DNA of 64,000 nucleotides from the NCBI RefSeq assembly GCF_003610995.1, contig NZ_CP032543.1, positions 5,394,001 to 5,458,000 of the forward strand. The letters are read 5' to 3'. This stretch comes from Streptomyces griseus subsp. griseus. GTDB taxonomy: Bacteria > Actinomycetota > Actinomycetes > Streptomycetales > Streptomycetaceae. Positions 44,552 to 48,401 of this stretch are shown in pieces; the stretch's first letter is position 1; every line of letters starts with the position of its first letter. The position numbers were made by a program, and so were the translations under genes. The notes under the pieces were generated by a model. That model ran no database searches, had not been told where the DNA came from, and saw nothing but the letters and a program-made list of their open reading frames with translations.

Positions 44552-47078
44552 ATGTCTGCTGTCGGTGGCATACCCGTAGCGGGAGGCCCGGCTCCGGCCG
44601 CCGCCCCCCGGCGTGACCTCCCGGGCCCGCTCGCCACGGTGCGGGTGCTGCTCCTCGTCCTGGTCGGCGCGACGGCCCTCGGCGCCGTCGGCCTCTCCGG
44701 CTCCGCGATCGCCGCCGACGCCATGGGCGCGCAGGTGCTCGGCATCCTGCTGTACGCCTCCGCCCCTGGAGTGCTCTGCGCCCTGCTGGCCTGGCATCTG
44801 CGGACGGGCGGCAAGCTCGTCCGGTGGGGGATCGTCGCCGCTCAGGTCTGGCTGATCGTCGGGGGCCTCGGCAACCTGGCGGACGGTTCACCGGACGGGC
44901 TCACGCAACTGGTGCTTCCCGTCCTGATCCTGGTGCTGCTGAGCCGGGCGCAGAGCCGGGCGTGGTTCCTGCTGCCGCCCCGGGAGCGCGGGGAGCCGCC
45001 GAAGTTCTCACTCCCGTACCTGATCACCTGGCGCCGGGACCGGGGCCAGTCCGCGCTGGAGTACCTGGGCCTGGTCCTGATCGTCGTCGCGCTGATCGCG
45101 GCGCTGACGGTGGGGGGCCTCGGCGGCCGGATCACGGAGGGGCTCCAGTCGGCGATCTGCTCCCTGACGGGCAGCTCGTGCCCGGTCTCGGGCGGCAGCG
45201 GCTCGGTGGAGGCGGGGGACACGTCGGGCGGGACGGGGGCGGACGGGGGTTCCTCCCAGGGCGCCGACAGGGGGCGGACGGCGGTGCGTCGGGTGATGCC
45301 TCCGGTGGTACGGACGCGGGTTCCACGGTCACGGGCGGTACGGGTGCCACCGGCGGCGACGCGACGGGAGGTTCGGGCTCCTCCGGCGGCGACGCGGCAG
45401 GCGGCACCGGCGCCACCGGCGGGGAAACGACCGGCGGCGAGGCCTCCGGCTCCACGGGATCATCAGGCTCCTCCGGCACCGAAGGCTCCTCCGGCTCCAC
45501 GGGATCATCCGGCACCACCTCATCCGGCGGCACCGGTGGCCCCGACGACGACGGACGCCCCGGTACCGGCGTGGACACCTTCCCCGAGGACTACGAGGAG
45601 CCCGAGGCCGCCTACGACATCCCCGCCGCGGCCGAAGGGGACGGCGAGAGCGGCGGCGAGAAGGCCGACGAGCAGGAGGACTGCAGCGGCTGGGGCTTCT
45701 TCGGCTGCGCCTGGGACCGTACGACGCAGGTCTTCAAGGGCCTGGTGGTGGACGGCATCTGGGGCGACATCTCCGGGATCATCGACCTGTTCAAGCCCGA
45801 GACCTGGGCCGGTCTCGCGGAGTACGGACGGCAGCTCGGCGACCAGTGGACGAAGGACTCCCAGGGCGCCGGCGACAAGTGGAGCGACGGCGACTACCTG
45901 GGCGCCCTCTGGGACTGGGGCAAGGCCTCCGTCAACACCGTGGTCACGGTCGGGGACGACGTCTTCGTGGGCGACGAGGTCCGCGAGCGCTGGAACAACG
46001 GGGAGAAGACCCGGGCCGTCACCGATGTGATCTGGAACGTCGGTTCGCTCTTCATCCCCGGCTACAACGTGGCCAAGGTGGTCGGCAAGGCCGGGAAGCT
46101 CGGCAAGGTCGGCAAGGTGGCCTCCGAGCTCGCGGACGTGGCGGGCGACGCGGGCGCGGCCGCCCGGCGGGCCCGCAAGGCGGCGGAGGCGGGCGACCTC
46201 GACGGCGTACGCAGAGCGGCGAAGGAAGCGGACGAGGCGGCCGACAGCGCCGAGGACGCGGCGCGCCGGACCGGTTGCGTCATCGCCTCCGGGCCACCGC
46301 CCCTGGTGCGGTACGGGGGCGGGGCGACCGGTGGAGTCCCCGGCTCCGGTACGGGGGTGCTGGCGGGCGGCTCGCCGGGCCGGGTGGTCCTGGCCGACGG
46401 CGGCTGCGACGAGGCGGCCAAGAAGGCGGCGGCACAGGCGCGGGCGGCGGAGCGGGCCGCGCACCTGGAGCAGAAGCGCCTCGAGGAGCCGGAGCGGGCG
46501 CGGAAGGCGGAGCTGGAGAAGAAGCAGCACCCCGAGCCCAGCGCAACGACACCTCCGACCCGCGCAACTACAACCCGCCGTCCTGGGCGGACGACCTCAA
46601 GAGCCGCACGCTCGGGGACGCGGACGCGGGCGACGGCTACTGGGCGAGCCGGGACCGCAACCCCGCGCCCAACTGGAAGAACGAGTCCTGGCTGCGCTAC
46701 CAGGAGCAGATCACGGGGACGAACCGGGGCCAGGAGTACGTCGTACCGCACCCCCGTGAGGGCAGGCCGGCCGTGGAGTACGACGGCTGGGACTCCTCCC
46801 GGCAGACGTATCTGGAGGCCAAGAACGGTTACGGCAGCTACCTCTCCCAGTCCGCCCCAGGCACGCTCACCCCGTCCGGCAAGGCCAAGTTCGTGGCGGA
46901 GGCCCGCGCCCAGGTGGAGGCGGCCGGCGGCAAGCCCGTGGAGTGGCACTTCTCGGACCCGGAGGTCGCCAAGGCGGCGCGCAGGGCGTTCCGGGACGAG
47001 AGGCTGCCGATCAAGGTGGTGTCGACGCCGGTGAAGGCGGGTGACAGTACGAGGAAGCCCGGGGCCTTCGACGAGTAG
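44552..47078 (+). pseudogene. Polymorphic toxin: 4 TM - Flp-pilin-like signal - linker - Tox-REase-5, with two frameshifts
   Basis: Read through two single-base frameshifts this encodes about 840 residues. The first part has four helices (44600-44950), then RDRGQSALEYLGLVLIVV with Gly165 followed by Glu at +5 and a hydrophobic run, the pattern of class III (Flp) prepilins. A Gly/Ser/Thr linker follows (45180-45550), then a pre-toxin region, and a C-terminal domain with RYQEQITG (46695), EYDGWD (46776) and LEAKNGYG (46812), the Asp and Glu-x-Lys of a Tox-REase-5 nuclease. One base is missing at the G-run 45270-45274 and one at a C-run near 46530-46539. The -10 box, start choice and two downstream genes fit a toxin-immunity cassette. 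Confidence 0.85.
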
Positions 47079-47084
47079 CCGCGT

Positions 47085-47090
47085 TAGCCT
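47085..47090 (+). promoter_or_regulatory. -10 box of the immunity gene
   Basis: TAGCCT lies 7 bases after the toxin stop and would start transcription near 47097, giving the immunity gene its own promoter and a leader of about 40 bases. Confidence 0.45.
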
Positions 47091-47137
47091 GCACGCGTGG
47101 GCGGTCCGGTCCGGCGACGGAGGAGAGAGAGATCAGC

Positions 47138-47836
47138 ATGCGACGTGTGGTGCGGGGCTTCTGGGGCCCGAGGCCGGAGTCGGCCGAGGCGCTGGCCGAT
47201 CGGTGGCTGCGGACCCTGGAAGGGCTCACCGGGCTCGTCCCGGAGGCGGCGGACGCCTGGAGCCAGGTCCATGCCGACGGACCCGCGACCGCCATCACGG
47301 CCGACGGGGACGCCCTGCTCGGCGCGGTGCGGGCCGCCCGGAGCGCGGCCGACTGGTCGGACCTGACGGGCACCGGGCTGCGGCTGGTCGGCACGGGCAC
47401 ACCCGGCTGGGAGGCAGAGATCAGCGGAGTGGCGGGCGGCGAACCGGAGTTCCTGCTCCAGTCGATCGCGGTGGTGCTGCACGCACCGGACGACGCCTCC
47501 GTCCCCGAGGAGGACCTCCTCGCGCTCCTCGCCCGGGTGTGGGAGCCGGACTTCGGCGATGTGAGCGACGACGACGTGCTGGACGCGCTGGAGGACGAGG
47601 CCGGGTTCTCGGTCGAGGACCCGGCGGTGGGCCGGGCCGGCTATCTCTCCCCGGCCCGCGCCGCCCTCGTACCGGAAGGACTGGACGCGGTCCGCCGTCA
47701 ACTCCCGGGCGGCGGAGAGCTGTTGGGCATCGCGGCCCCCGGCGACACCGCGGCGGTGGTGCGCGCGTGCGAGCGCCTGCGCGAGGCGGGGGCCCTGGCG
47801 CCGCTGCCCCGTCCGATGGACCGGGCGGTGCTGTGA
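47138..47836 (+). CDS. Imm52-like immunity protein
   Basis: A 232-residue acidic cytoplasmic protein. Its start VVRGFWGPRPESAEALADRWLRTLEGL resembles immunity protein 52 (split here: FWGPRPESAEALADRWL), which I recall as usually encoded next to Tox-REase-5 toxins. It should bind and block the nuclease of the preceding gene. GGAGAGAGAG precedes ATG 47138. It has its own promoter, useful for keeping protection even if the toxin is silent. The gene is intact although the toxin is broken. The family match is from memory and should be verified. Confidence 0.7.
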   Translation: MRRVVRGFWGPRPESAEALADRWLRTLEGLTGLVPEAADAWSQVHADGPATAITADGDALLGAVRAARSAADWSDLTGTGLRLVGTGTPGWEAEISGVAGGEPEFLLQSIAVVLHAPDDASVPEEDLLALLARVWEPDFGDVSDDDVLDALEDEAGFSVEDPAVGRAGYLSPARAALVPEGLDAVRRQLPGGGELLGIAAPGDTAAVVRACERLREAGALAPLPRPMDRAVL

Positions 47837-47861
47837 GCCGCGCGACCGCGCGGGCGGCGCG

Positions 47862-48401
47862 GTGACCTCCCGGGCGGGGGAGCCCTTCGCGCTGCCCCGG
47901 GCGGTGGCCGAGGCCGGGCAGCTCCTCGCCGCCCCCGTACCGGCCACCGGCCCCACCGCCGGCCAGGGTGACCCGGTGACGGGCGAGTGGAGCGCGACCG
48001 AGGGTGCGGGCTTCCGCGTCGTGCCGCTCTGGGAGGGTGACCCGCTGACCGGCGTGTACGCCCCCGAGTGGAACGACGCCGAAGAGGCCGCCGACGCGTA
48101 TCTGGCCGCCCTTACGCGGGAGTTGGACCACCGCTGGGGCCCGCACACCAAGGTCCGCCTGCACGGGCCGTTGCGCGCATGGCAGGCGGGTGCCCCCGTG
48201 GAGCCCCTGTTCCAGGCGCTGTTCGCCGTGGACCTGTACGGGGACCTGACCGTCTGGGGGCCGGTCGGTGCGGCGGGACCGGGCGGTTCCGGTGACCGAT
48301 GGTTCGGCGTGACCGTCGGCCAGAGCGACGGTGACGCGCCGCTCGTGCTGGCCGCCCTGGTCAGCGGGGAACCGGTCACGGAGCCGGACGAGGTGGGGTG
48401 A
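47862..48401 (+). CDS. Hypothetical protein, second candidate immunity gene
   Basis: A 179-residue acidic protein that I do not recognise. It has no signal or membrane helix. Seen: VVPLWEGDPLTGVYAPEWND, DAYLAALTRELDHRWGPHTKVRL, a beta-rich end (DLYGDLTVWGPVG, RWFGVTVGQSD). It begins 25 bases after the Imm52-like gene on the same strand, so it is probably co-transcribed. That place suggests a second immunity protein or a leftover from another toxin, but nothing in the sequence proves this. The GTG start at 47862 has a weak ribosome binding site. Confidence 0.6.
   Translation: MTSRAGEPFALPRAVAEAGQLLAAPVPATGPTAGQGDPVTGEWSATEGAGFRVVPLWEGDPLTGVYAPEWNDAEEAADAYLAALTRELDHRWGPHTKVRLHGPLRAWQAGAPVEPLFQALFAVDLYGDLTVWGPVGAAGPGGSGDRWFGVTVGQSDGDAPLVLAALVSGEPVTEPDEVG

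Follow-up and report, generated by a model that had tools for sequence, protein, structure and literature searches.

A gene in a 64,000-nucleotide stretch of Streptomyces griseus subsp. griseus DNA (contig NZ_CP032543.1, positions 5,394,001 to 5,458,000, here called the window) reads as a member of a polymorphic toxin family whose constant head, judged by its sequence, is the N-terminus of a type IVc (Flp) pilin. The best explanation of the locus is a pilin-headed polymorphic toxin that would be processed and exported by the Tad machinery, and we consider this explanation probable. The features on which the argument turns are the following, with positions counted from the first letter of the window:

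44552-47078, + strand: the whole toxin gene, about 2.5 kb, which reads in three frames in this assembly
44552..45268, + strand: piece A, an open frame with a four-helix membrane module, an Flp-like prepilin segment and the start of the linker
45035..45073, + strand: class III prepilin motif R-D-R-G/Q-S-A-L-E-Y-L-G-L, with seven invariant residues and a match to a pilin profile
45044-45046, + strand: Gly codon after which cleavage is predicted by the class III pattern, the Glu(+5) codon lying at 45059-45061
45271..46530, + strand: piece B, an open second frame with the Gly/Ser/Thr linker and a conserved pre-toxin region, which aligns to intact relatives
46533..47078, + strand: piece C, in the third frame, with a Tox-REase-5 domain (PF15648; best match at about 46689-46958) and its DG, EAK, Y, Q and W residues
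47138..47836, + strand: Imm1, an open frame assigned to the Imm52 immunity family by family matches, a fold match and linkage to the nuclease
47862..48401, + strand: Imm2, an accessory or second immunity gene with no family match above cut-off

The initial annotation had described four membrane helices, a segment with Gly and Glu at +5, a linker and a nuclease-like domain, and all four parts are present. Hydropathy peaks of piece A lie at residues 30-48, 62-80, 89-107, 112-130 and 172-190, that is, four helices and a fifth, and its AlphaFold model, of middling confidence (mean predicted local distance difference test score, pLDDT, of 73), has helices at residues 25-54, 60-82, 88-110, 115-130 and 166-187. 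The segment RDRGQSALEYLGLVLIVV contains Gly165 (45044-45046) with Glu at +5 and Tyr at +6, and piece A as a whole has the features named by the class III prepilin cleavage rule, namely a basic leader, Gly, Glu at +5, an aromatic residue at +6 and a hydrophobic helix. Residues R162, D163, G165, Q166, E170, G173 and L174 are invariant in all 21 aligned sequences (the window included), while position +6 is Tyr but His in one locus (L043). A profile built from 18 short Flp-type pilin genes matches piece A with E=1.4e-15, or 4.9e-16 once the genome's own pilin is left out, and has no match at E up to 1 among the remaining 57 called proteins of the window. Judged by this comparison the window segment is homologous to pilins, and the Flp name given to it by the initial annotation is borne out to that extent. 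Sequence searches of the PDB with profiles of the module, the nuclease and Imm1 found nothing at E up to 1.

The mean charges of the successive loops over the 21 sequences are +1.7, -1.3, +2.5, -0.6 and +3.1, then -1.7 behind helix five, with differences between single sequences (the loop ahead of helix five, for example, ranges from -1 to +7). These means obey the positive-inside rule, by which Gly165 would be expected on the cytosolic side and the linker and nuclease outside, as in a real prepilin. The initial annotation had further suggested that a TadV-type prepilin peptidase could release the linker and toxin from the membrane module. The site does fit prepilin cleavage, but the predicted cut lies N-terminal to the fifth helix and at the cytosolic face, so that the leader would be lost, a membrane-embedded pilin-like toxin would remain, and no free toxin would result. 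A later step, either Tad assembly or, in relatives, a HINT domain, must then free the toxin if this topology is right.

The best evidence for the fifth helix as a true prepilin start, and for the four-helix part as a partner, comes from split genes in a second bacterial family (f17 in our sampling). A class-wide scan found matches in 31 of 296 genomes, 21 of them in the window's own genus, and some of the matches in f17 cross stop codons because the module is there split into two genes. At these loci a small four-helix protein is encoded beside a toxin that starts like MLRRIHDPERG/AxxxEY, that is, with a 10-residue leader. Clear split pairs occur in four loci (L092, L093, L098 and L099), two more in L106 and L107 and one, with an uncertain start, in L091; L102 probably holds another, as a toxin match there follows a four-helix gene. 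The database relatives of the split-type toxin (six matches) come from Marinactinospora, Spinactinospora, Nocardiopsis and Allonocardiopsis, and one of them (P0123) is named "Flp pilus assembly pilin Flp" by NCBI. Since Spinactinospora belongs to the Nocardiopsidaceae, f17 probably corresponds to, or contains, this group. A search restricted to this family found such pilin-headed proteins in 10 of 41 genomes, one of which has 22 matches. At another locus (L089) three four-helix-like genes lie close together, one of them fused to a pilin-like segment.

The same head precedes many different C-terminal domains. The 18-pilin profile found 107 proteins of at least 400 residues among 1174 from the fetched loci (gene calls in our scripts came from a simple GC3 method of our own, based on G+C at third codon positions), all 107 with G-x4-E, in loci that were picked for holding the segment and whose rates are thus not unbiased; 64 have the four-helix module, 17 a constant C-terminus and 26 neither. 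A second, HINT-bearing type comprises 119 proteins that form one cluster by their first 250 residues and 24 clusters by their last 80. The Gly/Glu+5 pattern, whose absence from homologues would have counted against the initial annotation, holds as G-x4-E-Y in 120/120 listed four-helix homologues, 6/6 short-leader ones and 111/120 listed HINT-type ones, the nine others having an annotated start inside the segment; the listed homologues are 120 of 177 and 120 of 183 matches, and the former set of 120 appears to include the window's own shortened protein (P0018). PT-HINT was matched in 24 of 37 pilin-headed proteins in one set of scans and in none of the five four-helix proteins of another scan, nor in the window member or three intact relatives. 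Behind PT-HINT stand Ntox21, EndoU, Toxin-deaminase, Colicin_D, RNAse_A_bac, Ntox24, Ntox28 and Ribonuclease domains; on proteins without a PT-HINT match we found Tox-REase-5, Abhydrolase_8, XOO_2897-deam, ADPrib_exo_Tox and Peptidase_C2. The ends on pilin-headed proteins include a BURPS668_1122 deaminase, a calpain (the Peptidase_C2 of L094) and an ADP-ribosyltransferase. Taken from these sequences, a constant N-terminal head with exchangeable C-terminal toxin domains is a polymorphic-toxin family.

Several observations on the heads and ends may be added. Two cysteines of piece A, C203 and C210, are invariant and follow the pilin helix directly, on what is predicted to be the outer side; the HINT type has a similar pair. 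The window genome contains a second full module with an alpha/beta hydrolase end (Abhydrolase_8, in L045). Two neighbouring proteins of that locus (L045:4169-6004 and L045:6764-9079) share this hydrolase end and differ in their heads, one of which is pilin-like, and a small gene follows each; the former protein has what we take to be an ESX/WXG look, and the small genes are presumably lipoproteins by their appearance. The same genome has a third pilin-headed protein of 536 residues (L046:5000-6610, minus strand), about 94 kb from the contig start, whose C-terminus has no family match. L044 (12969-15275, minus strand) and 16 further loci, mostly in Tad-cluster stretches, encode a different protein, 518-816 residues long, which has a pilin-like segment of its own (GATATEYLG, for instance) and a constant C-terminus of the type FLGAPxGDxRxYLPYSYCAN. 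The L044 copy has no Pfam match; it may be a structural or tip pilin, and the 17 proteins of this Tad-cluster type may not be toxins.

Tox-REase-5, the family named by the initial annotation, matches piece C with E=4.3e-20 and 72.5 bits against a cut-off of 25. Across 27 aligned nuclease domains D, G, EAK, Y, Q and W are invariant, the window having YDG instead of FDG, in agreement with the signature FDG, EAK, Y, Q, W listed for this family in the part of PMC3482391 consulted. The same part of that paper names Imm52 as partner of Tox-REase-5. Imm52 (PF15579) matches 25 of 28 aligned Imm1 family members at E up to 1 (best 1.5e-10), while the window's own copy alone gives E=0.033, under the Pfam cut-off. 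The Imm1 model (mean pLDDT 93.9) matches the solved Imm52 protein 9owg with a Foldseek E-value of 1.7e-6 and a template modelling (TM) score of 0.66, the top Foldseek match being a hypothetical protein, 4rho. Among 85 fetched loci Imm1 is present in exactly the 48 that bear the nuclease, always downstream and on the same strand, within 300 bases of the toxin in 45 of them and 1.5-3.7 kb downstream behind other sequence in three; some loci are one place fetched twice (e.g., L002/L045 and L032/L047), so that the 48 and the 85 are not all independent. It occurs in 0 of 16 module loci without the nuclease, although four of these (L002, L010, L054 and L078) are cut before the gene ends. The proposal that the toxin has its own immunity gene is thus upheld. 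Imm2, which neither Pfam (above cut-off) nor NCBIfam matched, accompanies the nuclease in 40 of the 48 loci and is in none of the 37 other fetched loci. In L007, L014 and L022 a large minus-strand gene, presumably of an ATPase/TPR kind, stands between the toxin and its immunity gene.

The window copy itself is broken. Compared with four relatives the toxin gene needs three frames, whereas the neighbouring genes align in one; the exception is one gene whose first 77 residues, in the calls for L009 and L013, fall in a second frame, which we read as an over-long start call. Among 38 related loci, 34 have the toxin gene intact, as a single open frame reaching the same C-terminal domain (three of the 34, L009, L031 and L041, were scanned with Pfam). 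Of the remaining four, L010 is cut off by the end of its contig and L033 has a different C-terminus; L036 and L043 end prematurely, though nuclease sequence is still detectable and the immunity gene is present. Neither Pfam nor NCBIfam matches piece B at E up to 1, and NCBIfam gave nothing for any of the five window pieces and genes (toxin pieces A-C, Imm1 and Imm2). The three frames reflect either a pseudogene or sequencing errors; in the former case this copy probably confers only immunity. A broken toxin gene with the Imm52 gene kept downstream is thus seen at three places (window 44552-47078, L036 and L043), the pattern expected if immunity outlives the toxin. The locus sits between serA and uppS.

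The proposed link to Tad pili comes from gene neighbourhood. The Tad stretch of the window genome contains RcpC, a TadZ-like ATPase, TadE, TadA, TadB, TadC, an Flp-like pilin, OmpA and Peptidase_A24, and this Peptidase_A24 match is the only one in the genome. TadV, also called FppA, is the peptidase of Flp prepilins. In the Streptomyces sample 37 full modules occur in 24 of 121 genomes, and 13 of them (in 13 of the 24 module genomes) lie within 25 kb of an Flp pilin gene, where a rough estimate for random placement (50 kb in about 8 Mb, times 37, shared descent not removed) is below one. These counts rest on the part of the matches that was listed; they take the rows that cover almost all of the module, leave out fragments in G025, G067 and G075, and add pilin genes from fetched loci; a fourteenth module near a pilin gene (G105) is visible in L074. 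In 10 of the 16 loci that show both OmpA and Peptidase_A24 genes, loci picked, like those above, for holding the segment and giving rates that are not unbiased, a toxin-type fusion lies between the two on our own reading; five of the other six have only the constant-C-terminus protein there, and L052 has neither. In one f17 genome (G427) two pilin-headed genes come after a Tad cluster, one with an Ntox28 end about 10 kb from the pilin gene and one with an Ntox21 end about 13 kb from it. Gene neighbourhood supports a Tad link in many relatives, not at the window's own locus.

The sequences establish the anatomy, the pilin homology, the exchange of toxin domains and the pairing with an immunity gene; the course of events that we propose on this basis would be as follows. 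The protein would insert with its N-terminus inside and the toxin outside, and the genome's one Peptidase_A24 prepilin peptidase would cut after Gly165, splitting the four-helix leader from the pilin-like toxin. The TadA/B/C motor and platform would then treat the toxin subunit as a pilin or pseudopilin and load it or push it outwards. The nuclease domain would reach its target at the cell surface or on contact with a rival, with Imm52 protecting sister cells. The HINT domain found in many relatives would free the toxin there. The wider proposition, that actinomycete Tad machines are a dedicated export route for toxins made as oversized pilins, which the prepilin peptidase would activate and the machine would take up as pilus or pseudopilus subunits, has in our judgement an even chance of being right.

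A number of points weigh against export by Tad. The window locus is 563 kb away from its genome's flp gene, and for 24 of the 37 modules no such gene was seen within 25 kb, 10 of the 24 being on contigs without a listed pilin. The Tad-linked loci may also represent one inherited arrangement. Pfam Flp_Fap (PF04964) misses the window's segment as well as the genome's own Flp pilin; in the relative L066 it matches with E=0.007, below cut-off. The piece A model has no fold match in the PDB below E=0.4, pilins included. Peptidase_A24 occurs in 28 of 29 other module genomes and in 20 of 20 genomes without a module match; being near-universal, its co-occurrence with modules proves nothing, and as a test of the Tad link it was dropped as not discriminating. 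The Tad-like Kil system of Myxococcus, according to the part of PMC8460266 available, kills without a prepilin peptidase gene of its own. Finally, cleavage, export and killing are all predictions from sequence.

Some of these points would suit a pilin-like helix that is by now a mere signal anchor, the toxin standing on the membrane surface, or being set free by HINT or by other proteases, without Tad. The predicted topology already places the toxin outside without cleavage, many modules, the window's included, are far from Tad genes, and the PT-HINT domains counted above could do the freeing, though not in the five four-helix proteins scanned. A simple anchor needs neither Gly nor Glu at +5, yet both are fixed while much of the helix varies; the stand-alone relatives begin like short-leader prepilins, and many loci are placed beside the A24 gene, all of which makes the anchor an unlikely account. 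Still less probable is a reading in which the four-helix module acts as a peptidase or an export conduit in its own right, like that of PrsW-type polymorphic toxins, and the pilin likeness is incidental. It draws on the report of Tox-REase-5 with PrsW (PMC3482391, in the part consulted) and on a module that is multi-helix and a conserved partner. The module nevertheless has no PrsW match in Pfam at E up to 1 (only Yip1, at 0.083), it has four helices where that part of PMC3482391 gives eight for most PrsW members, and its invariant residues include one Asp and no Glu or His; the absence of a fold match mentioned above and its occurrence as a separate small protein in split loci speak against this reading as well. 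PrsW or another peptidase in the four-helix part was set aside as a candidate for want of a Pfam match.

We give hardly any credence to the pilin-headed proteins being pilus decorations or surface enzymes rather than weapons. The hydrolase- or protease-like ends of some (Abhydrolase_8 in L045, Peptidase_C2 in L094) and the constant C-terminus in 17 of the 107 long proteins would fit such a role; many of the C-terminal domains, on the other hand, are classical toxin families, and a cognate Imm52 gene follows the nuclease at every one of the 48 nuclease loci. A pilin-headed toxin that Tad would process and export thus remains our preferred reading.

Polymorphic toxins and their domains are already known, and databases already name single members of this family "Tox-REase-5 domain-containing" or "polymorphic toxin-type HINT domain-containing"; what seems new is a pilin-headed family with a testable claim about its export route. 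It shares with the polymorphic toxin systems described by Zhang et al. 2012 (PMC3482391) a constant trafficking head, a linker or HINT, a variable toxin end and a matching immunity gene. The trafficking modes given in the part of that paper covered are types II, V, VI and VII, PVC, PrsW, MuF and TcdB/TcaC, a pilin head not being among them, and the words "pilin", "prepilin", "TadE" and "Flp" are absent from the first 300,000 of its 357,715 characters. PrsW-dependent toxins are alike in having a membrane module before Tox-REase domains in Gram-positive bacteria and differ in that no PrsW domain was found here and the motif is one for a prepilin peptidase. The family has the prepilin motif and helix in common with Flp (type IVc/IVb) pilins and Tad pili, and Tad genes lie near many of its members; unlike the short mature Flp pilin, these are proteins of about 440-1070 residues with toxin domains, many Streptomyces members having the four-helix leader. 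For toxin domains with Flp pilins in print we found a single clause, in PMC12605009, in a search short on preprints and most subscription papers; it lists Flp pilins among extracellular elements joined to ADP-ribosyl cyclase (ARC) toxin domains, and the part of the paper at hand does not discuss the family, a Tad link, prepilin processing or delivery, unlike the pilin-headed family treated here. Kil of Myxococcus xanthus, in the part of PMC8460266 available, is a Tad-like machine needed for contact killing whose toxin was unidentified, and no pilin-headed toxins are mentioned.

Polymorphic toxins are sorted by how they exit the cell, and the pilin-headed family points to a route without a name in the 2012 catalogue, as far as the portion of it covered goes (PMC3482391). 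It gives the Tad clusters of Streptomyces a testable role. A Tad-like system of Myxococcus kills prey, and in the available portions of PMC8460266 and PMC10433427 its toxin is an open question. If the proposal is true, polymorphic toxins would have one more trafficking mode, and Tad-like killing by predatory bacteria would gain a possible model.

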